This document shows positions 16,190 through 59,600 of a DNA stretch of 64,000 nucleotides, in pieces (position 1 is the first letter of the stretch; every line of letters begins with the position of its first letter). The stretch comes from Argopecten irradians (Eukaryota; Mollusca; Bivalvia; Pectinida; Pectinidae): contig NC_091137.1 of the NCBI RefSeq assembly GCF_041381155.1, positions 16,735,765 through 16,799,764 of the forward strand, given 5' to 3'. The position numbers and the translations under genes were made by a program. The notes beneath the pieces are model-generated. The model saw only the letters and a program-made list of their open reading frames with translations. It was not told the origin of the DNA and searched no databases.

Positions 16190-16204
16190 AAGTTGGGTTT
16201 CTTT
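16190..16204 (+). repeat. Target-site duplication of LINE, left copy
   Basis: AAGTTGGGTTTCTTT, identical to 19912-19926 directly after the poly-A tail. It marks the 5' junction of a target-primed insertion. Confidence 0.8.
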
Positions 16205-20689: not shown

Positions 20690-23600
20690 GTAAGGAGCGA
20701 TTAAACAGATTCGTATCCACGTTATCAATTATTAAATGTCATCTTCAAATAATTTATCAAATCTAGATTGGGTTAATTACGGATTCATATATCAATGTCC
20801 AATTCGGAAAGGAATGTATTCATTTTTATTTATATTCGGAACAAAAAACAAGCTATATGATAACGTAAAAATGATTTCAAAGTAACAAACTCTGAACGGT
20901 GGAAACATCGCTATTTCAAACTTTTCATAATTGATGGCTGACATCTGATCGTGTACATGTAAGTTTTAAAATAAATAGAACGAGAAAAAGAACGTATGAA
21001 ATAATTACAAAGTGATCTTGTATCTACTCGTCAACCGTTCGGATATAGCTCGTAATTTTATTGTTAATGTTAGCTATGTAAGTTTAAATTTGAGTGTCTT
21101 CATTTTTTACGTTTACGAATTGACAGTGTATAACAAATATTTCATGACCTTTTCTGCCTCATACATTCATTCATTGTCTGTAAAGGTAAGATGGAGGAGC
21201 AGAATAAGATACTATCTCTATAGTGTATATTGTGATTCGTGTTTAAGTTACCTAGTTAGACCAGTATAAATAGCATATTGTTCAGCAGGAGGTCAGTCAT
21301 CCCCTTGGGACATATTTTATATATTATGATACATTGTGTGTACAAGTGTATATCATTAAGTCTTACAGTTACATCTAGACTAACGTGACTATATGTGTTG
21401 TGTAAAGGTGCGTCAGTGTTTGTATTGATGTCATGTTTTCTGTATTAGACTTTGACATTTTTAAACTTTTTTTTTTAATTTTGAAATTTACTTGTTTTAA
21501 CTTTTAGAATCTATTTGTTTGAAATTTTCATTTTTTTGTTTTAAACCGCGAACCACTCCTTTGTATACTCCAATTATTAATTTGATTGTGATTATTTCAA
21601 TAAAACATTTTTATGACTAATCAATACATTCTTATTTTCTTAATCTCTAGCATAGATATACGAGAAAATATTAATTTTCTTCTAATTTTGTTGAAAATGA
21701 CACCAGGTATTTCCCAAGGAAACGTTTAAAATCAAATGTCTGTGAAATAGGACATGTGCATTATCTCGGGAGCTATTCCATTTCCTCTGATATTTGTTGG
21801 TTTCTTCAGGTTTACACTGTGAAGATCATGGAATGGTTGGGAACTACATGTTTGATACAAAACACAATGAGTCTTTCCTGATAGGGATTAACAAGGCACA
21901 ATACCACTCGTATTGGTGGGATGATGGAGAACCTCTGTGGGTCACAGCTGAGAAACAGGTAACTATATATCACTGCTGGTGGGATGATGGAGAACCTCTG
22001 TGGGTCACAGCTGAGAAACAGGTAACTATATCACTGCTGGTGGGGTGATGGAGAACCTCTGTGAGTCACAGCTGAGAAACAGGGAACTATATCACTGCTA
22101 GTGGGATGATGGAGAACCCCTGTGGGTCACAGCTGAGAAACAGGTAACTATATATCAGTGCTGGTGGGTGATGGGGAACCTCTGTGGGTCACAGCTGAGA
22201 AACAGGTTATTATATCACTGCTAGTGGGATGATGGAGAACCTCTGTGGGTCACAGCTGAGAAACAGGTAACTATATCACTGCTGGTGGGTGATGGGGAAC
22301 CTCTGTAGGTCACAGCTGAGAAACAGGTAACTATATCACTGCTGGTTGGATGATGGAGAACCTCTGTGGGTCACAGCTGAGAAACAGGTAACTATATATC
22401 ACTGCTGGTGGGATGATGGAGAACCTCTGTGGGTCACAGCTGAGAAACAGGTAACTATATCATTGCTGGTGGGGTGATGGAGAATCTCTGTGGGTCACAG
22501 CTGAGAAACAGGGAACTATATCACTGCCAGTTGGAGGATGGAGAACCTATGTGGGTCACAGCTGAGAAACAGGTTACTATATCACTGTTAGTGAAATGAT
22601 GGAGAACATCTGTGGGTCACAGCTGAGAAACAGTTTAATATATCACTGCTAGCGGGATGATGGAGAACCTCTGTGGGTCACAGCTGAGAAACAGGTAACT
22701 ATATCACTGCCAGTTGGAGGATGGAGAGCCTATGTGGGTCACAGCTGAGAAACAGGTTACTATATCACTGTTAGTGAAATGATGGAGAACCTCTGTGGGT
22801 CACAGCTGAGAAACAGTTTAATATATCACTGCTAGCGGGATGATGGAGAACCTCTGTGGGTCACAGCTGAGAAACAGGTAACTATATCACTGCTGGTGGG
22901 TGATGGGGAACCTCTGTGGGTCACAGCTGAGAAACAGGTAACTATATATCACTGCTGGTTGGATGATGGAGAACCTCTGTGGGTCACAGCTGAGAAACAG
23001 GTAACTATATATCACTGCTCATGGGATGATGGAGAACCTCTGTGGGTCACAGCTGAGAAACAGGTAACTATATCATTGCTGGTGGGGTGATGGAGAACCT
23101 CTGTGGGTCACAGCTGAGAAACAGGGAACTATATCACTGCCAGTTGGATGATGGAGAACCTATGTGGGTCACAGCTGAGAAACAGGTAACTATATATCAC
23201 TGCTGGTGGGATGATGGAGAACCTCTGTGGGTCACAGCTGAGAAACAGTTTAATATATCACTGCTAGCGGGATGATGGAGAACCTCTGTGGGTCACAGCT
23301 GAGAAACAGGTAACTATATCACTGCTGGTGGGTGATGGGGAACCTCTGTGGGTCACAGCTGAGAAACAGGTAACTATATCACTGCTGGTTGGATGATAGA
23401 GAACCTCTGTGGGTCACAGCTGAGAAACAGGTAACTATATATCACTGCTCATGGGATGATGGAGAACCTCTGTGGGTCACAGCTGAGAAACAGGTAACTA
23501 TATCATTGCTGGTGGGGTGATGGAGAACCTCTGTGGGTCACAGCTGAGAAACAGGGAACTATATCACTGCCAGTTGGATGATGGAGAACCTATGTGGGTC

Positions 23601-26600
23601 ACAGCTGAGAAACAGGTAACTATATATCACTGCTGGTGGGATGATGGAGAACCTCTGTGGGTCACAGCTGAGAAACAGGTAACTATATCATTGCTGGTGG
23701 GGTGATGGAGAACCTCTGTGGGTCACAGCTGAGAAACAGGAAACTATATCACTGCCAGTTGGATGATGGAGAACCTTTGTGGGTCACAGCTGAGAAACAG
23801 GAAACTATATCACTGTTAGTGATGGAGAACCTCTGTGGGTCACAGCTGAGAAACAGGTAACTATATATCACTGCTGGTGGGATGATGGAGAACCTCTGTG
23901 GGTCACAGCTGAGAATCAGGTAACTATATCATTGCTGGTGGGGTGATGGAGAACCTCTGTGGGTCACAGCTGAGAAACAGGAAACTATATCACTGCCAGT
24001 TGGATGATGGAGAACCTATGTGGGTCACAGCTGAGAAACAGGTTACTATATCACTGTTAGTGATGGAGAACCTCTGTGGGTCACAGCTGAGAAACAGGTA
24101 ACTATATCACTGCTGGTGGGTGATGGAGAACCTCTGTGGGACACAGCTGAGAAACAGGTAACTATATCACTGCTGGTGGGTGATGGAGAACCTCTGTAGG
24201 TCACAGCTGAGAAACAGGGAACTATATCACTGCCAGTTGGATGATGGAGAACCTCTGTGGGTCACAGCTGAGAAACAGATTACTATATCACTGTTAGTGA
24301 AATGATGGAGAACCCCTGTGGGTCACAGCTGAGAAACAGGTACTATATCACTGCTAGCGGGATAATGGAGAACCTCTGTGGGTCACAGCTGAGAAACAGG
24401 TAACTATATCACTGCTGGTGGGTGATGGAGAACCTCTGTGGGTCACAGCTGAGAAACAGGTATCTATATCACTGCTGGTGGGTGATGGGGAACCTCTGTG
24501 GGTCACAGCTGAGAAACAGGTAACTATATCACTGCTGGTGGGTGATGGAGTGTCTCGTGACAATGTGATATGGGATTTATCAAACTCGTTTAATAATCTG
24601 ATAAGCCACTCTCCTTAACGCTCATGGCATATCGTTTGATAAATTTCATATCACATAGCCACTCATGTAAGATCTTCTATTTCGAAATCATTCGGTAGCA
24701 ATTGAAATGTATTTCAGGGAAAGCGGACGTATTTCTACCACTGGCCAGGTTGTGAGGTTACCATTCGTGGCGTAAAGCCTACCTACTGTCTGAAATACCC
24801 GATACTGGGCTACCCCAAACTGAAGGACATGCAGAATGCTATATCAGAGGGTTTGGAACTCTTCTCCAATGGATCTGCAGAAGTCGTAGGTCTGTTACAA
24901 TGTATCATAACAAACTATCAAATGTCGTAGGTCTGTTACAATGAATCTTAAAAAACTATCAACTGTCGTAGGTATGTTACAATGTATCGTAACAAACTGT
25001 CAAATGTCGTAGGTCTGTTATGATATATCATAAAAAACAGTCAAATGTCGTACATTTGTAGGTCTTTTACAATGTATCACAGGAAACTATCAAAGGTCGT
25101 AGAACTGTAACAATGTATCATTACAAACCATGAAATATCGTAGTTCTGTAACAATGCGTATCACAGGAAACTATCAAATATCGTAGGTCTATTACAATGT
25201 ATCATAACAAACTGTCAAATGTCGTAGGTCTATTACAATGTATCATAACAAACTATCAAATGTCATAGGTCTGTTACAAGGTATGACAGGAAAAACAAAT
25301 GTCGTAGGTCTGTTATAATGTATCACTACAAATCAACAAATGTCGGAGGTCTGTTACAATGTATCACTACAAATCAACAAATGTCGGAGGTCTGTTACAA
25401 TTTATCTCACGGAACCATCAAATGTCATAGGTCTGTTATAATGTATCATAAAAAACTATCAAATGTCGTAGGTATGTTACAATGCATCACAGGAAAACTA
25501 TCAAATGTCGTAGGTATGTTACAAGGTATAACAGGAAAAAACAAATGTCGTAGTTCTGTTAGAATGTATCATAGGAACTAGCAAATGTCGTAGGTCTGTT
25601 ACAATGTATCATGAAAAACTGTCAAATGTCGTAGGTCTGTTACAATGTGTATCACAGAAAACTATCAAATGTTGTAGGTCTGGTACAATGTATCACACGA
25701 AACTATCAAATATCGTAGATCTGGTACAAAGTATCACAGGAAACTATCAAATGTCGTAGTTCTAATAGAATGTTTCATAAAAACTGTCAAATGTCGTAGG
25801 TCTGTTACAATGTATAAAAAAAAACTGTAAAATGTCGTAGGTCTGTTACAATGTATCACAGACAGCTATCAAATGTCGTAGATATGTTACAATGTATCAT
25901 AGAAACTAGCAAATGTCGTAGGTCTGTTACAATATATCATGAAAAACTGTCAAATGTCGTAGGTAGGTCTGTTACAATGTATCATTACAATAATCAAATG
26001 TCGTAGGTCTGTTACTATGTATCACACGAAACTATCAAATGTCGTAGGACTGTTACAAATTTAACATACCAAACTATCAAATGTCGTAGGTATGTTACAA
26101 TGTATCACATGAAACTATCAAATGTCGTAGGTCTGTTACAATTTATCATAACAAACGATGAAATGTCGTAGGTCTGTTATAATTTATCATAACAAACTAT
26201 CAAATGTCGTAGGTCTGTTACAAATTTAACATACCAAACTATCAAATGTCTTAGGTCTGTTACAATACATTACAGGAAACTATCAAATGTAGTAGGTCTG
26301 TTCTGTGACAATTTATCATAACAAACTATCAAAGGTCGTAGGTCTGTTATAATACATTACAGGAAACTATCAAATGTCGTAGGTCTGTTCTGTTACAATT
26401 TATCATAACAAACTATCAAATGTAGTAGGTCTGTTCTGTTACAATTTATCATAACAAACTATCAAATGTAGTAGGTCTGTTACAAATTTAACATACCAAA
26501 CTATCAAATGTCGTAGGTCTGTTACAATACATTACAGAAAACTATCAAATGTCGTAGGTCTGTTCTGTTACAATTTATCATAACAAACTATCAAATGTCG

Positions 26601-29600
26601 TAGGTCTGTTTCAATACATTACAGGAAACTATCAAATGTCGTAGGTCTGTTCAGTTACAATTTATCATAACAAACTATCAAATGTCGTAGGTCTGTTACA
26701 ATACATTACAGGAAACTATCAAATGTCGTAGGTCTGTTCAGTTACAATTTATCATAACAAACTATCAAATGTCGTAGGTCTGTTACAATACATTACAGGA
26801 AACTATCAAATGTCGTAGGTCTGTTCTGTTACAATTTATCATAACAAACTAACAAATGTCGTAGGTCTGTTACAAATTTAACATACCAAACTATCAAATG
26901 TCGTAGGTCTGTTACAATACATTACAGAAAACTATCAAATGTCATAGGTAGGTCTGTTACAATGTATCAAAGGCAACTATCAAATGTCGTAGGTAGGTCT
27001 GTTACAATGTATCAAAGGCAACTATCAAATGTCGTAGGTAGGTCTGTTACAATGTATTAAAGGCAACTATCAAATGTCGTAGGTAGGTCTGTTACAATGT
27101 ATCAAAAGCAACTATCAAATGTCGTAGGTAGGTCTGTTAGAATGTATCAAAAGCAACTATCAAATGTCGTAGGTAGGTCTGTTACAATGTATTAAAGACA
27201 ACTATCAAATGTCGTAGGTAGGTCTGTTACAATGTATTAAAGACAAATATCAAATGTCGTAGGTAGGTCTGTTACAATGTATTAAAGGCGACTATCAAAT
27301 GTCGTAGGTAGGTTTGTTACAATGAATTAAAGACAACTATCAAATGTCGTAGGTAGGTCTGTTACAATGTATTAAAGACAACTATCAAATGTCGTAGGTA
27401 GGTCTGTTACAATATATTAAAGGCAACTATCAAATGTCGTAGGTAGGTCTGTTACAATGTATTAAAGACAACTATCAAATGTCGTAGGTAGGCCTGTTAC
27501 AATGTATTAAAGACAACTATCAAATGTCGTAGGTAGGTCTGTTAGAATGTATTAAAGGCAACTATCAAATGTCGTAGGTAGGTCTGTTACAATGTATTAA
27601 AGACAACTATCAAATGTCGTAGGTAGGTCTGTTACAATGTATTAAAGACAACTATCAAATGTCGTAGGTAGGTCTGTTACAATGTATCAAAGGCAACTAT
27701 CAAATGTCGTAGGTAGGTCTGTTACAATGTATTAAAGGCAACTATCAAATGTCGTAGGTAGGTCTGTTACAATGTATCAAAAGCAACTATCAAATGTCGT
27801 AGGTAGGTCTGTTACAATGTATCAAAAGCAACTATCAAATGTCGTAGGTAGGTCTGTTACAATGTATTAAAGACAACTATCAAATGTCGTAGGTAGGTCT
27901 GTTACAATGTATCAAAAGCAACTATCAAATAAAGAAATTTTGGTGTTAGTTCTCCTCTCCCCAAATATTAGTATCTTGTGATATCTACAAACTAAAATAA
28001 TGCTATTTATTAACGCTTCCTACACATGGTTTTTTACATTTATTATTTTCTTTACATTTATTTTGCAGTTCACTTTATTTACGCTTTCTTTATCAGCCAA
28101 AGACAACAACAACATTGACAATCAATCCTTTATTGAAAGCGTCATTTCATTCTAAGTTTTTTCCCCAAAGTTCCTTTCCCCAGTGTTCTTTGTATTTTGA
28201 CTAGCTACCTCATCCATCTGTTTCCCGTTGCTTACTTGTTTTACACTAATACAAGTTATACAAGTAATTACTAAAAATATGCAACCCATATGACACCGTA
28301 AATTAGGATAATTTGGATGTGTACATATCTTGGCTAATTGGCATGAAGTTATTTTAAAATGAATTGTGTGAAAAGGTGTACGTATGTAGCTACAATAGGC
28401 GCATGACAACGCTAAATCTAAATACGTCAAAATTTACGATACAAATTTGTATATTTAAATAATTATTTATGCAAGACAAGCACACTTTCTTTAGCATATA
28501 AATGTACCGACTGGCAATGGCATATGTTGTTATCCTTTGGACAGGTATATACGTTGAACTGCCTGACAAATACGGACACAAATATGGACCTTCATCACAA
28601 CAACTCAATCAGAAATTGGAGGAAATCGACGCAGAGATGGGAAAGTTATTGGACGAGCTTGAGACGCGTCACCTGAGAGATGAGGTCAATGTGATGATCT
28701 TCTCCGACCATGGGATGACCGAAGTGAGTCCGAACAGAGTTATTAACATCACAGACTACATAGACACAGATGATCTCCGGGTAGTACTAGATGCAGGGGC
28801 GAACGTTTATATATGGCCCAATCCTGGAAAACTGGATAAGGTAAGATATGATATTTCACTTAATATTATATGTATCTATTAGGTATAGTACATAGCCGAA
28901 TCACAAAGAACAGTCCATACGAGAATATCCAAAAAGCTTCATGAAAAGGTTTCAGCTATGTTTACTTCACATCCTTCTGTGGTCGTCGATTAAAAAGCAG
29001 ACAATTCTCAAGAGGAATCCCGTCCTCGATCCTCAGGACACATAATCGCTATCCCATCCTCGATCCCCTGAACACACTATCGCTATATCATCCTCGATCC
29101 CCTGAACACACTATCGCTATATCATCCTCGATCCCCGGGACACACTTTCGCTATCCCTTAATTCTCAGGACACACTATTGCTATCCTATCCTCAGTCCCC
29201 AGGACACACGATCGCTATATCATCCTCGATCCTCAGGGTACTCTATCGCTACCCCATCCTCGATCCCTAGGACACACTATCGCTATTCCGTCCTCGATCA
29301 TCAGGACACACTATCGCTATCCCATCCTCGATCCCCAGAACACATTATCGCTACCCCATCCTCGATCCCCAGGACACACTATCGCTATCCCATCCTCGAT
29401 CCCCAGGACACACTATCGCTATCCCATCCTCGATCCCCAGGACACACTATCGCTATCCCATCCTCGATCCCCAGGACACACTATCGCTATCCCATCCTCG
29501 ATCCCCAGGACACACTATTGCTATCCCATCCTCGATCCCCAGGACACACTATCGCTATCCCATCCTCGATCCCCAGGACACACTATCGCTACTCTCATCC

Positions 29601-32600
29601 AGGACACACATGCTATCATCCTCGATCCCCAGGACACACTATCGCTATCCCATCCTCGATCCCCAGGACACACTATCGCTACCCATCCTCGATCCCCAGG
29701 ACACACTATGCTATCATCCCAGGACACACTATCGCTATCCCATCCTCGATCCCCAGGACACACTATCGCTATCCCATCCTCGATCCCCAGGACACACTAT
29801 CGCTATCCCATCCTCGATCCCCAGGACACACTATCGCTATCCCATCCTCGATCCCCACGGCACACTCTATCGCTATCCCATCCTCGATCCCCACGACACA
29901 CTATCGATATCCCATCCTCGATCCCAAGGACACATTATCGCTATCCCATCCTCGATCCCCAGGACACACTATCGCTATCACATCCTCGATCCCCAGGACA
30001 CACTATTGCTATCCCATCCTCGATCCCCTGAACACATTATCACTATATAATCCTCGATCCCCAGGACACACTTTCGCTATCCCTTGATCCTCAGGACACA
30101 CTATCGCTATCCCATCCTCGATCCCCTGAACACACTATCGCTATATCATCCTCGATCCCCGGGACACACTTTCGCTATCCCTTGATCCTCAGGACACACT
30201 ATTGCTATCCTATCCTCAGTCCCCAGGACACACGATCGCTATATCATCCTCGATCCTCAGGACACACTAATGCTATCCCATCCTCAGTCCCCAGGAGACA
30301 TTATCGCTATCCCATCCTCGATCCCCAGAACACATTATCGCTATCACATCCTCCATCCCCAGGAAACACTATTGCTACCCCATCCTCGATCCCCAGGGTA
30401 CTCTATCGCTATCCCATCCTCGATCCCCACGACACACTATCGCTATCACATCCTCGATCCCCAGGACACACTATTGCTATACCATCCTCGATCCCCAGGG
30501 TACTCTATCGCTATCCCATCCTCGATCCCCACGACACACTATCGATATCCCATCTTCGATCCCAAGGACATTATCGCTATACCATCCTCGATCCCCAGGC
30601 ACACATTATCGCTATCCCATCCTCGATCCCCAGGACACACTATCGCTATCCCATCCTCGATCCCCAGGACACACTATCGCTATCCCATCCTCGATCCCCA
30701 GGACACACTATCGCTATCCCATCCTCGATCCCCAGGACACACTATCGCTATTCCATCCTCGATCCCCAGGACACATTATCGCTATCCCATCCTCGATCCC
30801 CAGGACACACTATCGCTATTCCATCCTCGATCCCCAGGACACATTATCGCTATCCCATCCTCGATCCCCACGACACACTATCGCTATCACATCCTCGATC
30901 CCCAGGACACACTATTGCTATACCATCCTCGATCCCCAGGGTACTCTATCGCTATCCCATCCTCGATCCCCACGACACACTATCGATATCCCATCTTCGA
31001 TCCCAAGGACATTATCGCTATACCATCCTCGATCCCCAGGACACATTATCGCTATCCCATCCTCGATCCCCAGGACACACTATCGCTATCCCATCCTCGA
31101 TCCCCAGGACACACTATCGCTATCCCATCCTCGATCCCCAGGACACACTATCGCTATCCCATCCTCGATCCCCAGGACACACTATCGCTATCCCATCCTC
31201 GATCCCTAGGACACACTATCACAATCCCATCCTCGATCCCCAGGACACACTATTGCTATCCCATCATCGATCCCCAGAACACATTATCGCTATCACATCC
31301 TCGATCCCTAGGACACACTATCACAATCCCATCCTCGATCCCCAGTACACACTATTGCTATCCCATCCTCAGTCCCCAGGAAACAACTATCGCTATCCTA
31401 TCCTCGATCCCAAAGACACACTATCGCTATCCCATCCTCGATCCCCAGAACACACTATCGCTATCCCATCCTCGATCCCAAGGACACACTATCGCTACCC
31501 CGTCCTCGATCCTCAGGACACACTATCGCTATTCCATCCTCGATCCCAAGGACACACTATCGCTATCCCATCCTCAATCCTTAGGGCACACTATCGCTAT
31601 CCCATTCTCGATCCCCAGGACACACTATCGCTATCCCATCCTCGATCCACAGGACACACTATCGCTATCCCATCCTCGATCCCCAGGACACACTATCGTT
31701 ATCCTATCCTCGATCCCCAGGACACACTATTGCTATCCCATCCTCGATTCCCAGTACACACTATTGCTATCCCATCCTCGATCCCCAGAACACACTATCG
31801 CTATCCCATCCTCGATCCCTAGGGAACATTATCGCTATCCCATCCTCGATCCCCAGGACACACTATTGCTATCCAATCCTCGATCCCCAGAACACGCTAT
31901 CGCTATCCCATCCTCGATTCCCAGGACACACTATCGCTATCCCATCCTCAGTCCCCAGGACACACTATCGCTATCCCATCCTCGATCCCCAGGACACACT
32001 ATTGCTATCCCATCCTCGATCCCCAGGACACACTATTGCTATCCAATCCTCAGTCCCCAGGACACACTATTGCTATTCCATCCTCGATCCCCAGGAAACA
32101 CTATCGCTATCCCATCCTCGATCCCCAGGACACACTATCGCTATCCCATCCTCGATTCCCTGGACACACTTTCGCTATCCTTTCCTCGATCCCCAGGACA
32201 CACTATCACTATCCCATCCTCGATCCACAGGACACACTATCGCTATCCCATCCTCGATCCCCAGGACACAATATCGCTATCCCCTCTTCGATCCCCAGAA
32301 CACACAATTGCTATCCTATCCTTGATCCCCAGGACACATTATCGCTATCCCATCCTAAATCCAAAGGACACACTATCGCTACCCCATCCTCGATCCCCAG
32401 GACACACTATCTTTATGCCATCCTCGATCCGCAAGACACACTATCGCTATCCCATCCTCGATCCCCAGGACACACTATCGTTATGCCATCCTCGATTCTC
32501 AGGACACATTATCGGTATCCCATCCTCGATCCCCAGGACACACTATCGCTATCCCATCCTCGATGATGCAGGGCACACTATCGCTATCCCATCCTCTATG

Positions 32601-35600
32601 CCCAGGACACACTATCTCTATCACATCCTCGATCCTCAGGACACATTATCGCTATCCCATCCTCGATCCCCAGGACACACTATCGCTATCCCATCCTCGA
32701 TCCCCAGGACACACTATCGCTATCCCATCCTCGATCCTCAGGACACACTATCGCTATCCCATCCTCGATCCCCAGGACACATTATCGCTATCCCATCCTC
32801 AATCCCCAGGACACATTATCGCTATCCTATCCTCGATCCCCAGGACACACTATCGCTATCCCATCCTCGATCCCCAGGACACACATCGCTATCGCTATCC
32901 CATCCTCGATCCCCAGGACACACTATCGCTATCGCTATCCCATCCTCCATCCCCAGGAAACACTATCGCTATCCCTTCCTCGATCCCCAGGACACACTAT
33001 CGCTATCCCATCCTCGATCCCCAGGACACACTATCGCTATCCCATCCTCGATCCCCAGGACACACTATCGCTATCGCTATCACATCCTCCATCCCCAGGA
33101 AACACTATCGCTATCCCATCCTCGATCCCCAGGACACACTATCGCTATCGCTATCACATCCTCCATCCCCAGGAAACACTATCGCTATCCCTTCCTCAGT
33201 CCCCAGGACACACTATTGCTATCCTATCCTCAGTCCCCAGGAAACACTATCGCTATCCCATCCTCGATCCCCAGGACACACTATCGCTATCCCATCCTCG
33301 ATCCCCAGGACACACTATCGCTATCCCATCCTCGATCCCCAGGACACACTATCGCTATCCCATCCTCGATCCCCAGGACACACTATCGCTATCCCATCCT
33401 CGATCCCCAGGACACACTATCGCTATCCCATCCTCGATCCCCAGGACACATTATCGCTATCCCATCCTCGATTCCCAGGACACACTATTGCTGTCCCATC
33501 CTCGATCCCCAGGAAACACTATCGCTATCCCATCTTCGACCCCTAGGACACACTATCGCTATCCTCGATAATCCAGGATACCACTGACGTAGTATCCACC
33601 CCTAGGCTATCTAATATTAAAACTCGAGGCAGTTCAGGATAGAAATTAAAACTGACCAATTACAGGTCTGTATGAAATCAATTTGAAGAATACAGAGATA
33701 GCTTTAAAGCAACATGTCAACCACAGTGTTCCGTTACTTAATTTGTTATGATGTACATGAAAGAATAAAATTACTTGTGTCTCCTGAACTGCCTTCAGTT
33801 TTACTATGATATAGACCAGGATGGATATGACGTCATTGATAGTAACCCCTGGAGTATCGAGGGTGTCGTCATTCTTCAGGTGAAGGATCTGTGTGCGACA
33901 CCTTGAATATATAATGACACAAGGTAGTTTGTTATTTGATGCACATTAAAAAGAATTGAATGTAGATATGGCTTAATCAATTTAAAATCTAACGTCGAAA
34001 GTTGAGAAGTACTTTTTTTTCTAAATTAAATTGTTATTTGCACATGTTTGTACTATGCCATGCTTGTATGGAGAAATCTAGTTACCAAATTTTGTGATAC
34101 CTTGATGTCTACCAGGTGTATAACGATCTGGTCGCTATGGACAACCCCCACTTGACCGTCCTGAAGAAGGAAGACATTCCTGACAAATGGTATTACCGTA
34201 ACCATTATAGGACTTCCCCTATACTACTGGTGGCCGAGAGTGGCTGGTATATTACAACGGTAGGTACAATATTATATGAGTTATCTCCCTTGATACACTA
34301 ATAATGTATGTTATGACTACCTGATTTATCTTATTTAGGATCGAAATATTATTCTTTCTGAGACATTTAATTACATCGAATGTTCTCTTGAGTTAAGCAT
34401 TGATGTCACTATTTTTTTAACTTCAGCGGGGTATGAACTAAATTTTGTTTGCAAACTGTGTGTATTCGCGTAGCTACTTGGTAATTTAAAAATAAACGAA
34501 CGATTCCATTATTTTTTTCCAGTAGATTGTCTTTCTAAATCAATACGCAACGTCGACGTCTTTATTGGGTTTCCGCGCCATTCTCGGCTTTTTTTCTTCA
34601 TAGTGTATGAAGGAAAAAAAATCTGCAAATCAGAAAGTAGGATTTAGTATGAAAACAAATAAAAATCAATTATTGTATCAATAATATAAGTTTTTTATAG
34701 GTTTTATTTCCAATTTATTGTTTTTGCAATCAAGATATCGAAGTATTTTGAACTCAACATTATCATTAAAAATTTCATTTCAGCCATTACTCCCACAATA
34801 TTATTCGTACTTCGGGTCTGGACCGATGCAGGGAACACATGGATTTGATAATTTTGAGATCGACATGAGGGGTATATTTCTAGCCACGGGACCAGGTAAT
34901 ACACCCGTTTATATAACTCGAGTATAATGTTCTAACGTATTTTTGCCACATGGCTGTTGTCATGAGTAATATTAATCAATTCAAGAAACATTAAAGAAAC
35001 AACAAAACAAAGCAATTAGTATTGTATGATAGCGAAGTACTGTCACTAAAAAACTCTAGTAACTTTCCAAATTAGGTGTTTCCTCACTCGAGCGTATGAA
35101 TAAATATGACGGATTTACTTACGTTTATGATATTGTAATCTATTATCTTCATTTTCTGTTATTACATGTTAAGTTTTTACTCCAAGTTTTACTGATCGTG
35201 TCATAACCTGTATACGTAAATTATTCTTTTATAATATCATATTTGGCTTTGTCTGATATCTTTTCCTACTGACATGCATACATCGTTATACAGGACTAAG
35301 ATAGGCTATGTCTGATGTTAAATTTTATTATGATAAACATTATATCTAATTATTTGTTAATATCATTTGTTATTGGTCTTTCCAGATGTCGCCCAGAACG
35401 TGGTACTTAAAGGGTTCTCAAACATCCATATCTACCAGGTCATGTGTTACATGCTGGGGATCAATCCCAGTCCAAACGATGGTGAGTGGGGTGCTGTACA
35501 CGGAATTCTGCCAGAGGATGTTTCATCAGCCACTTCCACTGTAGCTGATTACGTCACCCTGATGGTGGTGATGACGATATCGGCCCTTATAGGGGCCATG

Positions 35601-36643: not shown

Positions 36644-36647
36644 TTAA

Positions 36648-36945: not shown

Positions 36946-37035
36946 TTAACGTGTAACGAAATAAATATCACGTTTTAACGAGAAACTTGTTTCATTATTC
37001 AATGTGACACTAACAGGCTTTCGTGTATTTTTGGC

Positions 37036-39593: not shown

Positions 39594-39595
39594 TT

Positions 39596-45400: not shown

Positions 45401-48400
45401 AGGAAGCCGAAAGAAAGTATCAAAGTATCGGATCTAGGTTTCAGCCTACGTACACAGCCCGTGTAGGGAAACCGATTCAGAGAGTTTGTCTGGGATTTTC
45501 TGAACATGTGTGTGGTATAGAAGATAACGGACACATCAGTGGTGTACAGGTCGACATTATCAATAAGGAGATTTCTCCTGAAACTGTTTGGAGAGAAGAC
45601 ACCGAAATGACAGAAGATGAGAGAACTCTTTCAAAAGAAATCATTCATCATTGGGCAGATTATCTTTGGGATCATTATTCCAATCTAAATGCTATCTCTG
45701 CTGGAAGTATTGCCAGAATTAGTCATCCTGATATGACACCAACGGGGCACATCATTTTACATTGTTCACACAAAGGCTTTATTCCACTTGAAAGTATGCC
45801 TTTTCCACCTGAATTAATGTGTCAAAATAGAACCATGCCTGTGGCTGTTCTGGAGGGAGAATTTAGACTTGGCCCTATTGATCATTCTTCGGGTTCGCGA
45901 TGCAAAAAGAATCCTACAGATGAAAACACAGAAACACAGAGAGAACCAGTCACGGGAGATGCAGTGGGGACATCGAATACATCAGTGGGGAAGGATTTAG
46001 ACACAGATGGAGCAGGTGCATCAGTGGGCGATGAAACGGAACATAACTTGCCCGAGACGAGTGATCGAACAGCTAACGTCACGATAGCAGTAGGTAGACG
46101 ATACCCGATGGCAACAAAAGAACATGTTCCTTTGAAAGTAGGAATGCATTTATGCAAATCCGAGGGTGCAAATGACTATCCTGATGAGGGCACACTAGGA
46201 ATTTTTGTTGACATGGATGAAGATAAAACGGGATTCGTAACATGTGCTCATCTATTCTATAAGGACGATATTCGTACAGGGAGGAATCAGATATATTTCC
46301 CAAATTCACATGGAAGACACGGAGCTGCCGTCATTGCCCCGCTGGATCACTTTGAAGAAGAAGTTATACGGAAGATAGAACCAATGGAGGTAGATGATGA
46401 ACCTGTGGCTGAAGTTGATATTAATATAGCAAACAAGTTAGTTAACTTATTTTATTTATAACGTACCTGTTCTCGATTTTTATAAACATCTACGTGATAA
46501 ATCTCCACTAAAATATGCGCTATATCTACTGTATAACAAATATTGCATCAATTTGATCAAATTGACTCGGTATTAATACATTTTTTTATCGCTATCTGTT
46601 TTCTACGCTTAACATTTTACACTGGAATCTTAATTGATTTTAGGCCCCGAAACAGTCAAAGGTTATAATGTTGTCCGTGATATAAAGAGATTCATAACAT
46701 TGTGTCTTATTTTACATAGTATCTACTGGGAGTGTGGAACACTAGTTCGAGCCGTATTGGATTCAACATTGGAAACTGGTATTGATGCAGCTCTTATAGA
46801 GATCGATCCATCAAGAGTGCCGAAAGATGGAGCCTTTGATAACATCAAAAACACCCATCTCCGAAATGCAGGTAAAATATATGCTTCCTGAATTCTATAT
46901 GAGATATGTTCCCACAGTTATTTTCCAGTAATTACAGTTAATGGCTGGCGTGCGTCTCCTTGAAACCACTGTGTCAATGGAATAAGTGGCCTAAGTAGTT
47001 TGAATACTTTTTGAGTTCAACATACTGTTCTGTAAGGGCGTTTTTAACTTAATTAATGTTTTGACCTACGTACAGTAAGATAATTGAGGAAATTATTAAA
47101 TAATGCATTGAAAAGAATATACAAACAAGTATATTACAATCATCGACATTTTATAGATAATTATATTTTAAATCGCTTTCGAATTTAAAACGCATTCTCA
47201 TCGTTATTAGCATAACTTGCAATATAAATAGTTTGGAATTTATTTCTGTTTGAGTTACTTCTCTTACCCCCGTGTGTAATTAATACTAAGGTACTGTTCA
47301 TCTTATAAGCAAACATGAAATACGTGCAGCTCGATTTTTACTTTACAACGGATTTGAGGATAGAAGTCGTGGCTGAAATATATATGAATGATTATCCCGG
47401 CGGTAAAAACAGAGTGGTTGAACGAGTCGCAGAGTTTGGTAGACACATATGCAATATTTATATGGCCAATAGTACGCTGCCACTAGTGAATCCTACTTTT
47501 GGCGGCGTTAAAGTCCCGTTATGTTTTTTTGGGGAAAAATATCGGCATAAAATACCAAACTTTGCTCAATGACAGACATTTATCCTTATGAAAATATCCG
47601 GTAATGAAAAATGCCCAACGCTTCCATGTATTTCAAAAACAATAGAAAAACTCTCGTAACAGATGGAGTATTCCGACTCATTGCTACAGAGTATAAACAG
47701 AGCTAAACATATCGAGTTCGCATTCACAGCCAGAAAAAGTGGAATTTCCCAAACAGACGTCACGATTACATGACAGATTCCGAAATTAGCCTAAAACTCA
47801 CTGAATACGAGTAAAATAACACAACAGTCTATCGTGTACACTGTCTACACTTGGACTTAGCACGACCATCAAACCGCCAGTCAATATTAATCTGTATACT
47901 GTATCAGAAACAATTAAAATAATGTGTTGAGGCTTTTTAAAAATTTATATCATTATTTACTTGCCTGATTTTCGGTCTATTTAAGCTTATTAGCTTTAAG
48001 GCTACCATTAATTCTCCAATTTTGAATTACATGTCTGGGTTGCGCATGTTGAAATTATTAACAATACATCCTTAGAAATAGTCATTTTACAGATATGAAG
48101 TGTACAATGTATACAAGTACATGTTAAATTATTAAACATTGTCACTTCTGATTAACAAACTTAAATTTTGTGTAACATCATTTTGAAGCACTGGGTACTT
48201 CATTCGTAGCTCCAGTTGTAATATCTTATTGTATGTCTTGTATTGCACTTACTATACTATTAACTTTGGTGAATAAGCGTCAGTATTTATCGTCAATACG
48301 AGTCTCTAATCTTTGAAGAGGTAAATTCGTGCCGTGTATATTGTATATTTCATATTCGAAATAAACATACTGTATATGGTAATTAATAAATACTTTTGTA

Positions 48401-50674: not shown

Positions 50675-51035
50675 ATGTGCAGTATCCTACAATATATAAC
50701 GAACCACAAGGCCCCCTCCTCTGGATCGCCATTTTGAATCCCATGAGGGGCAGCGGTCAGGTACTAACCGCAAGTCGTTGGTTTGTGTCCGGATTTTCGG
50801 GTTTCCTCCACGTACAAATTTGATACGGCCTCATATAGCTGTTAACATGACGTTTGGCTAGTCATACGAAACCAAACCAATATATGGACATACATAATAC
50901 CAATATATTACATACTGATTGAACGAAATCAAAATGAAGACTGATGGCCAGATGACGCAATTTTGGTCGAAATCTGACCACAGTGCTTTGTATCGTAGTA
51001 CTTTATCAAGATCCTAGTCATTATTAATTAGTTAA
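50675..51035. other. 3' flank of the ankyrin/protease gene
   Basis: About 360 bp without coding signal. No canonical AATAAA was seen close to the stop. Confidence 0.35.
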
Positions 51036-51389
51036 AGATGCTTCACTGCCGACAGAGCATAAACGATACACATCATTTGAACAATAATTGGTGTTTGATC
51101 GTCTATATACAAAAATGTATATGTCTAATTAACAAAAAAACAATAAAAAATAATTTATTTTGCTTTTGGTGCATGCGCAATCAGTATTTCATTCAATGTA
51201 GGACATAGTGCCATTGAAATTTTTCGGGATGCAATCAATTATTTTTAATTTTTTTTTATCTTGAAGCAAAATTAGAAGCTCAAACTTTTTAATGGCAGTA
51301 ATGGTGTAAAGTAAGTAACCTTTGTAACTGAAGAAAAATACTAAATCGTCTGCTCCTGTTTAATACTATCTGTCAGCAGTGGACCATCT
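51036..51389 (+). mobile_element. TTAA-type MITE, copy 5
   Basis: Same family as 135-478, with TTAA on the left (51032-51035) and a mutated CTAA on the right. The terminal repeats are more diverged (AGATGCTTCACTGCCGACAG ... GTCAGCAGTGGACCATCT), suggesting an older copy. Confidence 0.8.
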
Positions 51390-51953
51390 CTAAGATATAG
51401 TTTAGTTAGAATAAGTACCCAGATAACAAATAGCTGATCATGCAAGAAAATATTATTTTTATACTATTTGGTCACAATTTAGTATACCTATTTTAACTTT
51501 AATTCAATTCAAAACTTTCATTTTAACGACCATGAAATACTCCGATCTGGTCTGACCCTGCCCGATCCCGTAAATTGTCTATACGCTCTGTATCACGCTC
51601 AGGGATTTAGATCTGGAGGCGGATAGATTACGAATCAGGAACGCCCAATCAGAATATTTTATTAGACAAGTAACATTTCCAGCTGATTTTGTGAAGTGAA
51701 AGTATTGTATATATTTCCTAATTAAAAATAAAAAAAACCCAATCTATTATTGTATTTCCTGCTTGAATTCTATTCAGGCCAGGATATGAAGCATAGATAT
51801 ACATATATATTTTATTTTGAGACATATCTGGCATTTCAAACGCATAAGAGATAAAAGAGGCTTAGCTCGAAGTATGATATGGCCCGACACATAAGCATAG
51901 CAATATATCCGACTACCTTCAAAATATTTGTTTGTTGTTACATATATCAACTA
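51390..51953. other. No gene seen
   Basis: AT-rich spacer before the 52-bp array. An ATG-initiated stretch at 51879-51953 runs directly into a GTAAGA donor-like site at the array start, but no other exon evidence exists. Confidence 0.35.
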
Positions 51954-54308
51954 GTAAGACATGTCCAAATGTTGATTTATGTGATACTGTCTTTACCATA
52001 CTTAAGTAAGACATGTCCAAATGTTGATTTATGTGATACTGTCTTTGCCATACTTAAGTAAGACTTGTCCAAATGTTGATTTATGTGATACTGTCTTTGC
52101 CATACTTAAGTAAGACATGTCCAAATGTTGATTTATGTGATACTGTCTTTGCCATACTTAAGTAAGACATGTCCAAATGTTGATTTATGTGATACTGACT
52201 TTGCCATACTTAAGTAAGACATGTCCAAATGTTGATTTATATGATACTGACTTTGCCATACTTAAGTAAGACATGTCTAAATGTTGATTAATGTGATACT
52301 GTCTTTGCCATACTTAAGTAAGACATGTCCAAATGTTGATTTATATGATACTGACTTTGCCATACTTAAGTAAGACATGTCTAAATGTTGATTTATGTGA
52401 TACTGTCTTTGCCATACTTAAGTAAGACATGTCCAAATGTTGATTAATGTGATACTGACTTTACCATACTTAAGTAAGACATGTCCAAATGTTGAGTTAT
52501 GTGATACTGTCTTTGCCATACTTAAGTAAGACATGTCCAAATGTTGAGTTATGTGATACTGTCTTTCCCATACTTAAGTAAGACATGTCCAAATGTTGAT
52601 TAATGTGATACTGTCTTTGCCATACTTAAGTAACACATGTCCAAATGTTGATTTATATGATACTGACTTTGCCATACTAAGTAAGACTGTCCAAATGTTG
52701 ATTAATGTGATATTGACTTTACCATACTTAAGTAAGACATGTCCAAATGTTGAGTTATGTGATACTGTCTTTACCATACTTAAGTAAGACATGTCCAAAT
52801 GTTGATTTATGTGATACTGTCTTTACCATACTTAAGTAAGACATGTCCACTGTTTACCATACTTAGTAAGACATGTCCAAATGTTGATTTATGTTACTGT
52901 CTTTACCATACTTAAGTAAGACATGTCCAAATGTTGATTTATGTGATACTGTCTTTGCCATACTTAAGTAAGACTTAGTAAGACATGTCCAAATGTTGAT
53001 TTATGTGAGTATGTCCAAATGTATTTATGTGTGACTTTGCCCTTAATAGATGTCTAAATGTTGATTTATATGATACTGACTTTGCCATACTTAAGTAAGA
53101 CATGTCTAAATGTTGAGTTATGTGATACTGACTTTGCCATACTTAAGTAAGACATGTCCAAATGTTGATTAATGTGATACTGTCTTTGCCATACTTAAGT
53201 AAGACATGTCCAAATGTTGAGTTATGTGATACTGACTTTACCATACTTAAGTAAGACATGTCCAAATGTTGATTAATGTGATACTGACTTTACCATACTT
53301 AAGTAAGACATGTCCAAATGTTGATTTATGTGATACTGTCTTTGCCATACTTAAGTAAGACATGTCCAAATGTTGAGTTATGTGATACTGTCTTTGCCAT
53401 ACTTAAGTAAGACATGTCCAAATGTTGATTAATGTGATACTGTCTTTGCCATACTTAGGTAAGACATGTCCAAATGTGATTTATGATACTGACTTTGCCA
53501 TACTTAAGTACTGTCAAATGTTGTTTGATACTGCTTGCCATATAAACCAATGTGATATGATACTGCTTTGCATACTTAAGTGACATGTCCAAATAGTAAG
53601 ACATGTCCAAATGTTTTATGTGATACTGACTTTGCCATACTTAAGTAAGACATGTCCAAATGTTGATTTATGTGATACTGTCTTTGCCATACTTAAGTAA
53701 GACATGTCCAAATGTTGATTTATGTGATACTGACTTTGCCATATTTGTACTAGTAAGACATGTCCAAATGTTGATTTATGTGATACTGACTTTGCCATAC
53801 TTAAGTAAGACATGTCCAAATGTTGATTTATGTGATACTGTCTTTGCCATACTTAAGTAAGACATGTCCAAATGTTGATTTATGTGATACTGTCTTTGCC
53901 ATACTTAAGTAAGACATGTCCAAATGTTGATTTATGTGATACTGTCTTTACCATACTTAAGTAAGACATGTCCAAATGTTGATTTATGTGATACTGTCTT
54001 TGCCATACTTAAGTAAGACATGTCCAAATGTTGATTTATGTGATACTGTCTTTGCCATACTTAAGTAAGACATGTCCAAATGTTGATTTATGTGATACTG
54101 TCTTTGCCATACTTAAGTAAGACATGTCCAAATGTTGATTTATGTGATATTGACTTTGCCATACTTAAGTATGACATGTCCAAATGTTGAGTTATGTGAT
54201 ACTGACTATGCCATACTTAAGTAAGACATGTCCAAATGTTGATTTATGTGATACTGTCTTTGCCATACTTAAGTAAGACATGTCCAAATGTTGAGTTATG
54301 TGATACTG
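51954..54308. repeat. 52-bp minisatellite array, ~45 units
   Basis: The unit is GTAAGACATGTCCAAATGTT followed by GATTTATGTGATACTGTC and TTTGCCATACTTAA. Variants (GTCTTT/GACTTT, GATTTA/GATTAA/GAGTTA) are intermixed. Two patches (~52840-53050 and 53480-53620) are scrambled by deletions. Every unit contains a near-consensus donor AA|GTAAGA. Open frames on both strands are artefacts. Confidence 0.96.
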
Positions 54309-54984
54309 ATTTGGCTGCAAGACATGCACATAAATTGGACACAAGGTACAATTGTCAGGTGTGGTAGCTGTTAGATCACTAATTAAATTAGTACACTTTT
54401 TAATCCAAATTTTGTAACGTGTGCTTGAATCCAGTTTTGTCTCTTAACATTCAACAAATACATGCCTTTAGTTTTATTTTCATGATTTGTTATTTGTTAA
54501 CGTACCAGCAGTACATACATTTATAAATATTTACTTATTACCATAGATACTCTCATTGCTCTAATGATTATCAAGATCTGCACTGCGAGTCAACACATGC
54601 AGCCCAGACTAATTGGTTTATTAACTCTTACTGTATGTGCAAGAATGGGAGATCTGTTTATTAACACCAAGTTAGTTCGCGCAGGAAATTTGACATTGTA
54701 GTTGAATGAACCAGTTTGTTTGAAACTATAAAAAAACTGTTATATGTCTGTATTTTTAGTAGGAAACTGAAAAGCTATGGAAAAACAATGGGTTTTTGTT
54801 GTCCTTTCAATTTTTTATACTGGGGACATTTTTTTATCACATAGATCTTGGCTGTTCAGGTTAAATGGCTTAAGCGGGAAATTCAAACGTTCATTCTGTT
54901 TTACTTTGTTAGATTGCAATCTGGGTGGCAAATATATATTCATAGAATGTCACGAAAACCCGACTTATCCTGACGTCACAATAG
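54309..54984. other. No gene seen; dispersed repeat inside
   Basis: A stretch at about 54411-54530 (GTGCTTGAATCCAGTTTTGT, CATGATTTGTTATTTG, TTTATAAATA) matches 61046-61150. The open frame at 54777-55103 overlaps a second dispersed repeat and is not called as a gene. Confidence 0.4.
54411..54530 (+). repeat. Dispersed repeat shared with 61046-61150
   Basis: The ordered motifs GTGCTT(G/T)AATCCAG, TTTCATGATTTG(T/C)TTATTTG and CAT(A/T)TATTTATAAATA occur in both places in the same orientation with moderate divergence. Confidence 0.6.
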
Positions 54985-55160
54985 AGCCATCGACGTTGCG
55001 TATTGTTTTAGAAAAATATTATCCATTTGAAAATCAATGGAATCGTAATTTAAAACTTTTTTTTATGTTACCAAGTAGTCTGAAAAATAGTAATAAGCAT
55101 TGATGTAACTATTTTGTAACTTCATCGGGTTATGAAATAAATTTTGTTTGGAAACTTTTG
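54985..55160. repeat. Dispersed repeat shared with 34398-34560
   Basis: CCATCGACGTTGCGTATTG, then the GCATTGATGTAACTATTTTG and TATGAAATAAATTTTGTTTG motifs. It overlaps the C-terminal part of an unsupported open frame. Confidence 0.6.
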
Positions 55161-55267
55161 TGAGAAACTACTACGCGGATTCACACAGTTTGCAAACACA
55201 ATTTTTATAGTTTATGTTAAAATGTGAAAGAAGAAAAAAATCGAAAAATATATGTAAATTCATTTTC

Positions 55268-55692
55268 TCTGTACGATTCATTAATGTACTCGGAATCATT
55301 CTGATGATTTTTACGCTTCAATAATGTAATTGGATATCATTCTGATGTTCTGGAGGATTTAATAATGTACCCGGGAATCTTTCTGATGTTCTGAACGAGT
55401 CAATAATGTACCTGATAACCTTTCTGATGTTCTGTATGATTCAATAATGTATTAGGAAATCATTCCCATGTTCTGAACAATTCAAAAATGTACCCAAGAT
55501 CATTTTCATGTTCTCTAAGATTCAATAATGTACGCGAGAATCATTCTGATGATCTGTACGAACTCAATAATGTACCCAAGATTATTCTCATGTTCTGTAA
55601 GATTCAATAATGTACGCGGGAATCATTCTGATGTTCTGTTCGATTTAATAATGTACTGGGAAATCATTCTGATGTTCTGTACTTTTCAATAA
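55268..55692. repeat. ~42-bp degenerate tandem repeat, ~10 units
   Basis: Unit approximately GTACGATTCAATAATGTAC followed by CCGGGAATCATTCTGATGTTCT, 40-44 bp, with many substitutions. It is older or less homogenised than the other arrays. Confidence 0.85.
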
Positions 55693-55785
55693 TAAATTGC
55701 TTGAATTAAACTCAATATATATTATACTAAAAATGAAGTTGGAGTTGTCCCTTTTTAGCTATTGATTAGTGTATTGTTTCTTATT

Positions 55786-56066
55786 TTATTTGTACATATT
55801 GTTGATAATATAATGAATGTTGAGTGTATATAATAATGCTGATAACTGATTTGAAATACTTTGGCGTAACGTGATGTCCAATCCATTTTAAAATAATAGA
55901 TTAAGTTAATCACAAAACATTTGCTTAAATTCTTACTTAAAAAATGAAATATCTTATTTGTATATATAGTTGATAATACAATGTTTAATGAATGCAGAGT
56001 GTATATAATGATGTTAATATTGGAATGGCCTTGAGTAGGCGTAGCCCGATGTCAAATCCATTTGAT
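55786..56066. repeat. Two diverged direct copies of a ~105-bp segment
   Basis: 55786-55890 and 55955-56066 share TTATTTGTA(C/T)ATAT, GTTGATAATA(T/C)AATG, GAGTGTATATAAT and GGCGTA(A/G)C(G/C)(T/C)GATGTC, ending in AATCCATTT. Confidence 0.7.
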
Positions 56067-56117
56067 GTATGTACATCAATACAATTTTGTTGAAATTAAT
56101 TAATTTATCAGGAAAAT

Positions 56118-56315
56118 GACAGAATATTTTATCAAATTCTTCGTACAAAAACAACATATCACGATATTCTAAAGTCAATGCTTAAATGTATGCAACGTGA
56201 TGATAAACATATGAAACAGCATATTTTATTAAATTCTTAGTACAAAAACAACATATCACGATATCTTTAAGTCATTGCTTACATGAAAGCAACGTAATGA
56301 TAAACATATGAAATA
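56118..56315. repeat. Tandem duplication of a ~100-bp segment
   Basis: TATTTTAT(C/T)AAATTCTT, GTACAAAAACAACATATCAC and GATAAACATATGAAA occur twice, 103 bp apart. Confidence 0.8.
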
Positions 56316-56536
56316 TAATTACGACAGTCATTCAGATACAATTGGAATCACAGGAAATTATATTGTAATAAGCCAACTTTAGCCTCACAAAATGTAAAAC
56401 ATTCTGAATTAACCGAATCGGAACATGGAATACTGTTTAACTCGATTTAGAAGATGTAACATGACGAACTTATATATCTCAAAGATAATGAATGTGTAAC
56501 AATTTTTCTTCGCGTTCATGACTCAAGGGCACGGTT
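56316..56536. other. 3' flank of the nrf-6-like gene
   Basis: Short 3' flank/UTR on the minus strand; no polyadenylation signal was singled out. Confidence 0.35.
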
Positions 56537-56686
56537 TCATTTTTTAGGTTTAGCTTTCGCATTTTTACGTTGACCTCCTCGTCGAAATATGACTTTTTCT
56601 AACGCCATCATTGGGGCTTCAAACGCCAAGGAGAGGACGAAGGCAACCATGTAGGACATAATCATGTAGCCGAGGAAGAGATAAAT
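56537..56686 (-). CDS. nrf-6-like: nrf-6-like last exon
   Basis: 50 codons including TGA (56539-56537). It begins IYLFLGYMIMSYMVAFVLSL after acceptor AATTAATTACAG and ends in a basic tail (FRRGGQRKNAKAKPKK). Its first ~24 bp and acceptor are the parent of the adjacent minisatellite. Confidence 0.9.
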   Translation of the reverse strand: MYLFLGYMIMSYMVAFVLSLAFEAPMMALEKVIFRRGGQRKNAKAKPKK

Positions 56687-59600
56687 CTGTAATTAATTAA
56701 ATATATAGATTTATCACATAGTAGAGGAACAGATAAATCTGTAATTAATTAAATATATAGATTTATCATATAGTAGAGGAACAGATAAATCTGTAATTAA
56801 TTAAATATATAGATTTAACATATAGTAGAGGAACAGATAAATCTGTAATTAATTAAATATATAGATTTATCACATAGTAGAGGAACAGATAAATCTGTAA
56901 TTAATTATGTATATAGAGTTATCATATAGTAGAGGAACAGATAAATCTGTAATTAATTAAATATATAGATTTATCACATAGTAGAGGAACAGATAAATCT
57001 GTAATTAATTAAATATATAGATTTATCACATAGTAGAGGAACAGATAAATCTGTAATTAATTAAATATATAGATTTATCACATAGTAGAGGAACAGATAA
57101 ATCTGTAATTAATTAAATATATAGATTTATCATATAGTAGAGGAAATCGATAAATTGTATTATAATAATCTGATTATAAATAGTAGAGGAACAGATAAAT
57201 CTGTAATTAATTAAATATATAGATTTAACATATAGTAGAGGAACAGATAAATCTGTAATTAATTAAATATATAGATTTAACATATAGTAGGGGAACAGAT
57301 AAATCTGTAATTAATTAAATATATAGATTTATCACATAGTAGGGGAACAGATAAATCTGTAATTAACTAAATATATAGATTTAACATATAGTAGAGAACA
57401 GATAAATTGTATAATAATAATAGATTACTATATAGAGGAACAGATGATAATATATAGACAGATAATCTGTAATTAACTAAATATATAGATTTAACATATA
57501 GTAGAGGAACAGATAAATCTGTAATTAACTAAATATATAGATTTAACATATAGTAGAGGAACAGATAAATCTGTAATTAACTAAATATATAGATTTAACA
57601 TATAGTAGAGGAACAGATAAATATGTAATTAACTAAATATATAGATTTAACATATAGTAGAGGAACAGATAAATCTGTAATTAATCAAATACAATTTGTA
57701 TATAGATTTAACATATAGTAGGGGAACAGATAAATCTGTAATTAACTAAATATATAGATTTAACATATAGTAGAGGAACAGATAAATCTGTAATCAATTA
57801 AATATATAGATTTAACATATAGTAGAGGAACAGATAAATCTGTAATCAATTAAATATATAGATTTAACATATAGTAGAGGAACAGATAAATCTGTAATTA
57901 ACTAAATATATAGATTTAACATATAGTAGATGAACAAATAAATCTGTAATTAACTAAATATATAGATTTAACATATAGTAGGGGAACAGATAAATCTGTA
58001 ATTAATCAAATACAATTTGTATATAGATTTAACATATAGTAGGGGAACAGATAAATCTGTAATTAATTAAATATAACATATAGCCAAGGAACAGATACAT
58101 ATGTAACTAATTAAATATAGATGCATTCGATAACACCAAGGAAGCAATAGATCTGTAATTGATTAAATATATTAGATATGCTCTGATTTTCCACTATTTT
58201 TATTGGCTAATACTTGGTCACGTGACGTTCAATATATAGCATATTGACTCGGTGTTTCTAAAAATGCTAATAACCCTTTGCGAACTGCATAGCCAAATGC
58301 TGCATTCTTCAGTCTTATAATGACCGAGGTCGTAGCCCGAGGCCATTATTTTAAATTGGACCGATACAAAGGTCCTTAACTTTTTATACTAGATATGTCA
58401 TTTCTTCACAAAGGAATATTAACTCTGTGTTTCTAAAAATGGAAATACCGAGTCGATATGCTATATAATGAAAGTCACGTGACCATGTATTAGCCAATTA
58501 AAAATAGTGGAAAATCAGAGCATACATTGTATCTAATATTTATCTTTAATGAATAGCTATAGAGAACGATCAGGAAATTATTTACTTATATATTTACCAA
58601 ATAAATGAATTTTCAAAATATGACATTATTTAAATGCTATAATAAAGCTCGTGTTCGACGATATTATAATATCTTTTTACGTTTATAGTTCGGACACAAT
58701 GGTCACAATGGCTGTGCTGAGGTTTGCTGTACTTACGAAAGCTGTGTCGGACGCGAAGACGTGCTCTCGTAGAGACAAAAGGTTCATCATCATAATAAGC
58801 ATATGGATCAGATAGGCACAGTAGGTTAGTCTACCGAGTGGTATAAACGGTTTCCACGATAGAATAGTGTTCACAAAACCTATCAAAGATATATTATGAT
58901 TATTATTAATAGATAGATAAATTAATAAATGAATAAATAAATAATTTAATCTAAAAAATACTTTCTCTCTTTCTTTATATTGCAAATATGTCTTCCATAA
59001 GATCAAGATAACGAACATATGATTTTCAATGAAATAAAGATTCGGTTTACCTCCATTTCCGGTGGCGCATGCGAATATCACCCAGCTAACACACGCTCCC
59101 CACAAAGTCCTGGAAGTGGAATTATAAAGGGCGGCTACTCCCACATCAACGCGGTCTCCGTTTGCAGCATCATAAATACCATACACAATTAGGCAAGCCA
59201 CAACTGTAGCTACCACCCAGATGAAGAAATTCACATACTGAAAATAAAATTACATTTCACATATGACGAACGTATACAATACTTAAAGTAAAAGAAGTTT
59301 TATATTACATTTTGTTGAATTCATATGATTCATGCAATAATCATTATCCATTAACTAAATATTTATGACCAATATAAAAGAATTGTTTTGTTTCAATTAT
59401 AACGTTAAAATTATTAGAATATATTTTCTGTTTGAGGTTTGATCAAATTTTAATATAGTTTGCTGTCTTTGTTACAATCAAACATGCGTGTCCACAGATA
59501 ATGCCATGTTGCTTACAACATTTTTGTGTGTATAAGGTAATTTGGTTGTTCGTGTTTTCCAACGAATGTCGGCTAATAACGATAATATTAGCAGTATAGA

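Follow-up and report, generated by a model that had tools for sequence, protein, structure and literature searches.

Why should three long minisatellites, lying in the introns of two genes, each be built from copies of the splice junction that they adjoin? The question is raised by a stretch of 64,000 nucleotides (the window; C4:16735765-16799764) of the 846-Mb assembly of the bay scallop Argopecten irradians, in which arrays A1 and A2 belong to an ENPP6-like glycerophosphocholine phosphodiesterase gene and A3 to an nrf-6-like O-acyltransferase gene. In all three, the true border is formed by the unit that adjoins the exon. This exon-proximal copy codes and appears in a known protein, and the additional copies are intronic. 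We consider it likely that these arrays are junction-seeded minisatellites of the kind named mirages in amphioxus, with a bias for junctions that finds support across the scallop genome.

The A1 unit joins 45 bp of the end of exon 2 to about 16 bp of intron carrying the 5' splice site. Copies follow one another at 56 to 63 bp, and a higher-order period of about 185 is superimposed. GT is kept in 31 of the 43 copies and the exact CAG/GTAACT (a slash marks the splice point) in 25 of the 43, true copy included. Three A1 copies have in common a replaced donor (CAGTTTAAT, at 22631-22639, 22814-22822 and 23246-23254), a sign of variant spreading within the array by duplication or conversion. The A2 unit consists of 7 exonic bp, the donor and intron sequence; the overlap with exon 3 is limited to the seven bases GTCGTAG, and TAG/GT is kept in 61 of 70 further copies. 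A3 repeats the acceptor of the last intron together with the start of the last exon, with 15 periodic bases inside the true exon (boundary 56686) and ACAG/AT kept in 24 of 27 further copies. Its edge copy aligns across 29 exonic bases with 5 differences, a match equalled by 0 of 2000 shuffles. In A1 and A2, no significant homology was found when the alignment was carried farther into the upstream part of the exon (385 of 2000 shuffles as good for A1, 227 of 2000 for A2). Analysis by Tandem Repeats Finder (TRF) and unit parses thus bear out the first-pass annotation, which had described three arrays of tandem border copies at these places in the two genes, a first unit overlapping real coding sequence in each, and dozens of decoy splice sites beside the true one.

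The exon ends proposed in that annotation are also correct when set against proteins of the same species. The ENPP6-like gene has 7 exons over about 15 kb and encodes 451 amino acids, its best solved relative being ENPP6 (E 8.8e-114). The spliced product differs from protein P0001 at 1 residue among the 451. The contig from which P0001 is listed has 2055 bases, far fewer than the 15-kb gene and not enough to hold its introns; we infer that P0001 is transcript-derived. The acyltransferase exons agree with A. irradians protein P0121 at 351 of 351 compared residues. At the end of ENPP6-like exon 3, a GTAGGT four bases upstream was excluded as donor by phase and protein match, leaving TAG/GTCTGT (24889/24890). 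P0001 reads AEKQ/GKRT and EVVG/IYVE at the A1 and A2 borders, in agreement with use of the outermost copies of both arrays; at the A3 border P0121 agrees, at the level of protein, with use of the outermost copy.

The decoys of A1 seem to be decaying. Positions +1 to +5 of their donors vary more than the exonic part, showing 9 of 15 possible alternative states where the exonic part shows 10 of 87 (Fisher P 1e-4); among copies related through the higher-order period, this difference is no more than suggestive of decay. The copies could have been kept for a function: extra 5' splice sites would recruit U1 small nuclear ribonucleoprotein (snRNP) and shield long introns from premature polyadenylation, or would tune splicing, so that arrays with splice signals would persist more often than they originate. 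Retention of the splice signal in most copies of A1, A2 and A3 fits with it, as does the genome-wide enrichment in arrays of both splice words tested (see below). However, the U1 idea leaves the enrichment of the acceptor word unexplained, and the greater variability of the A1 decoy donors looks like decay. We regard retention for function as very unlikely, and function is not needed to explain the junction arrays.

Could the exon border instead have been derived from the repeat, which would then have come first or arrived in a mobile element? A2, which shares so little with its exon, gives no direction when taken alone. The exonic part of A1, in contrast, encodes a 15-residue segment that is identical in Pecten maximus and aligned in the solved ENPP6 structure 5ege. 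When the A1 unit was searched in the genome, all of the 43 matches reported lay inside A1, which shows that it is no dispersed element. Introner-like elements are dispersed families of similar introns or inserts, and the same search excludes the A1 unit as one of these. On the acyltransferase side, 7 of 8 other models have the corresponding last intron without a repeat row, P0131 being the exception. A border derived from a repeat is, on this evidence, barely credible, and growth from the junction is well supported.

Junction arrays extend beyond the window. GT-AG models of the ENPP6-like gene and nine acyltransferase paralogues, ten genes of the species in all, comprise 130 introns with a single solution at each junction; those of P0131 (594 of 770 residues) and P0141 (605 of 786) are partial. 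They hold six junction-spanning arrays in addition to A1, A2 and A3 (Table 1). Donors are affected in A1, A2 and two arrays of P0131, acceptors in A3, intron 6 of P0121, intron 12 of P0204 and two arrays of P0131. In the last-acceptor array of P0131, the copies join the end of the intron with its AG to the opening codons of the last exon. The DNA examined stops short of the true last exon, so that the final junction of the model is a decoy copy. A3 of P0121 has the same intron position as this array, which may reflect shared ancestry or recurrence. One paralogue, P0131 (loci L028 and L031), thus carries four junction-spanning arrays. The arrays in intron 10 of P0141 and intron 4 of P0154 end short of the junction and were counted as interior. 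P0142 and its paralogue g5 both have a 44-bp array in intron 4; with only 4 to 10 exonic bases shared, it too was counted as interior. It runs up to the acceptor in both genes (C5 loci L006-L023), with 20 and 51 copies, and the same period is found in g4, as if the array had outlived gene duplication while changing length. Regions g1, g4 and g5, for which there is no own-species protein model, were inspected and excluded from the counts; no junction array was seen in g1.

The density of arrays at junctions was compared with a null in which units are placed blindly and a junction counts as spanned when at least 5 bp lie on each side of it. The 27 repeat rows of the gene models (unit of at least 15 bp, length of at least 45 bp) were merged into 25 arrays. 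Of the 19 arrays whose unit does not exceed 110 bp, 9 are junction arrays where 1.81 are expected (P 1.7e-5), and 6 of 14 against 1.37 (P 0.001) when the ENPP6-like gene and A3 are left out; the 110-bp cut was picked after the arrays were seen.

A second line of evidence comes from the whole genome, in which triplets, defined as a word repeated three times at 27 to 57 bp spacing, were counted on both strands for one donor word and one acceptor word. The donor word GGTAAGT gives 26318 triplets for 141817 single occurrences, or 18.6 per 100. Control words of equal composition give 5.8 (TGAATGG, 7483 for 129344), 9.5 (GGATAGT, 5896 for 61810) and 12.5 (TGATAGG, 12672 for 101627). The acceptor word TTTACAG reaches 8.0 per 100 (21602 for 268945) and its reverse GACATTT 4.0 (11586 for 291271). 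Per occurrence, GGTAAGT therefore exceeds its three normalised controls by a factor of 1.5 to 3.2, and TTTACAG its single one by a factor of 2.0.

What the donor-word arrays are was examined in the left flanks of the first seven forward GGTAAGT arrays of differing sequence, which account for the first 100 triplets listed on the forward strand and lie within the first 2.76 Mb of contig 1 (C1). Four of the seven appear to start within an open frame ending at the donor, and the homology is firm for two of these exon ends, an enolase and an ABC transporter. The exact word GGTAAGT occurs at only 5 of the 130 donors of the gene models; blind seeding would therefore place few of its arrays at true donors. 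If four in seven is typical, the remaining GGTAAGT rate would resemble that of the controls, by a rough calculation from these seven arrays at one end of a single contig. Around one of the apparent exons the same 41-bp repeat is found upstream (L035:39-500) and directly downstream (L035:1394-1601).

The alternative to be taken most carefully through these numbers is blind seeding, in which duplications fall anywhere in genes, some units span borders by chance and junctions are not preferred. Junction zones are a real share of the pre-array intron, so that 4.31 junction arrays in 25 are expected over all unit lengths. Several points weigh against a preference for junctions. The 9 of 25 observed over all unit lengths are a modest excess (P 0.011). 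It loses significance when the ENPP6-like gene and A3 are left out (6 of 20 against 3.87, P 0.15), and leaving out P0131 in addition abolishes it (2 of 14 against 2.61, P 0.81); in this last subset, units up to 110 bp show no significant excess either (2 of 10 against 0.75, P 0.17). The local excess leans on one paralogue, because significance for short units is lost once P0131 too is dropped. Nine of the ten genes are moreover of one family, and the expected counts depend on the 5-bp placement rule. As to the words, the donor controls differ two-fold among themselves, large arrays weigh heavily in triplet counts, and the further controls GAGTTAG (6664 triplets) and GATTGAG (3204) are raw triplet counts. 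On contig 1, no exon was found in the left flank of three of the seven donor-word arrays, two of the four apparent exon ends (L035 and L038) have no firm family match, and the flanks examined were those of donor-word arrays. Finally, border use was read from proteins, and decoys may see minor use.

Blind seeding nevertheless has to account for the excess of short-unit arrays that persists without the ENPP6-like gene and A3, for two splice words, one donor and one acceptor, over-represented in tandem triplets throughout the genome, and for four of seven donor-word arrays that appear to start at exon ends although few donors carry the word. We judge it unlikely. That A. irradians arrays arise or persist at junctions above blind placement, with a factor that ranges between tests from 1.5 to 5, is supported, not proven. 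The first-pass annotation had asked for a count of such an excess; in the part of that check that was run, the short-unit and word excesses appeared, and a significant local excess without the ENPP6-like gene, A3 and P0131 did not. Its claim that the arrays recur holds outside the window, in P0121, two paralogues, the enolase and the ABC transporter. The attached verdict of "not chance" is supported in a weaker form than claimed: with minisatellites so common and introns so short, blind seeding by itself predicts some junction arrays, and the local excess leans on P0131. Among the mechanisms proposed there, the data single out none of slippage, break repair and splicing-linked instability.

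In these arrays an existing exon border, comprising a stretch of exon, the splice site and some intron, is tandemly repeated on the intron side. In the course that we favour, the first duplication would be neutral, since one intact border remains, and the array would later grow through slippage or unequal exchange, to which the higher-order period points. Splicing would then pick the outermost copy because exon definition favours it. In a wider form, splice junctions of this bivalve would be preferred birthplaces of minisatellites genome-wide and would have left very many junction arrays, donors and acceptors alike, by an instability shared with that of cephalochordates or convergent to it; we put this forward tentatively, with slightly more doubt than confidence.

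Multiplication of a splice site by a tandem repeat is known in the human CBS gene, where a 31-bp variable number tandem repeat spans the exon 13/intron 13 border and multiplies the donor, at a single human locus. The first-pass annotation named duplication at splice sites as a known route to new introns and found arrays of this length unfamiliar; junction-spanning minisatellites are already described in amphioxus. As reported there, mirages are minisatellite-like tandem duplications across the exon-intron border, at either splice site, in Adh3, the globins BflGb6 and BflGb9 and troponin C, with similar repeats in PGBD5; splice signals are found in many, not all copies, regular splicing is reported undisturbed, and allelic and somatic length changes are reported (PMC3087553, PMC3902484). 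The scallop arrays belong to this known kind, here in a mollusc and beyond the window. They share with mirages a unit that spans the border, with the exon-adjoining unit of A1, A2 and A3 being the true one, an occurrence at both 5' and 3' borders, and splice signals kept in many but not all copies. They differ in size, reaching about 70 copies and 3 kb against 3 to 6 units in BflGb6, and in being found in a bivalve, in several genes and with a genome-wide word excess. The scallop DNA analysed represents one haplotype.

Related phenomena are less close. In human segmental duplications, variable tandem repeats located at exon-intron boundaries were proposed to create new introns (PMC2812944). 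The expansion of minisatellites at exon-intron borders is common to that system and the scallop; there, however, the gene structure of young paralogues is altered; in the scallop the introns keep their layout and the additional copies fall within them. A link between tandem duplication and introns is also made by intron gain through tandem genomic duplication (PMC4974935), but in the scallop existing introns are enlarged and no new intron was seen. Gain of an intron at a new position is excluded among the acyltransferases compared, whose paralogues share their intron layout with or without arrays. In molluscs, the excerpt of an abalone study describes a 27-bp minisatellite within an intron and does not mention junctions (PMC6905558), and no mollusc report of junction-spanning minisatellites was found in the open-access literature among the matches listed.

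If junctions do seed minisatellites, what was noted in a handful of amphioxus genes turns into a general process that could be counted wherever a long-read genome exists; how introns grow and how alternative splice sites originate would then be directly testable. A junction preference in this bivalve, if true, would keep duplicate splice sites in ready supply for both alternative splicing and the gain of introns. Dozens of near-perfect decoys seemingly bypassed by the spliceosome offer a natural test of the choice between identical sites. Junction arrays can also mislead exon finders, as with the decoy copy that the aligner took here for the last exon of P0131.

Table 1. Junction arrays and associated exons in the window, in the gene models and among donor-word arrays of contig 1.
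Feature	Position	Strand	Unit, copies or exonic overlap	Basis or remark
Array A1	21914..24550	+	61-bp unit, 43 copies	TRF, unit parse
Array A2	24883..27930	+	41-45-bp unit, ~70 copies	TRF, unit scans
Array A3	56672..58119	-	52-bp unit, 28 copies including the true one and decayed ones to ~58162	TRF, unit scan
ENPP6-like exon 2	21810..21958	+	last 45 bp are the first A1 unit	spliced model, phase, unique GT-AG solution, P0001
ENPP6-like exon 3, donor TAG/GTCTGT	24718..24889	+		spliced model, phase, protein match
ENPP6-like exon 4	28545..28840	+		spliced model
ENPP6-like intron 4 array	29017..33564	+	34 bp x 134	TRF; interior, starts 176 bp past donor, not a junction array
Last coding exon of nrf-6-like O-acyltransferase (P0121), with stop codon; acceptor TTACAG/ATTTAT	56537..56686	-		P0121 match
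Penultimate exon of nrf-6-like O-acyltransferase; donor GCTTTC/GTAAGT	58737..58879	-		gene model
P0121 intron 6 acceptor array			43 bp x 4.8	same gene as A3, outside the window
P0204 intron 12 acceptor array			59 bp x 2, 42 exonic bp	52/59 identical
P0131 donor array			53 bp, 34 exonic bp	
P0131 acceptor array			60 bp x 9, 21 exonic bp	
P0131 donor array			102 bp x 7, 84 exonic bp	
P0131 last-intron acceptor array			67-bp unit, at least 23 copies	
Array start at enolase exon			31 exonic bp	Pfam 5.3e-10, PDB enolases 1.1e-10
Array start at ABC-transporter nucleotide-binding exon			33 exonic bp	Pfam 1.8e-12
Array start at open frame 5 kb further on than the ABC-transporter exon			19 exonic bp	no family match
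Array start at open frame with weak V4R match only			8 exonic bp	

The ENPP6-like introns 2, 3 and 4 consist mostly of minisatellite. Further long minisatellites lie outside both gene models of the window, at 1954-5452 (39 bp x 86) and 51953-54308 (52 bp x 46), and open frames at 16145-18471 resemble, as judged by eye, a reverse transcriptase of the long interspersed nuclear element (LINE) type.

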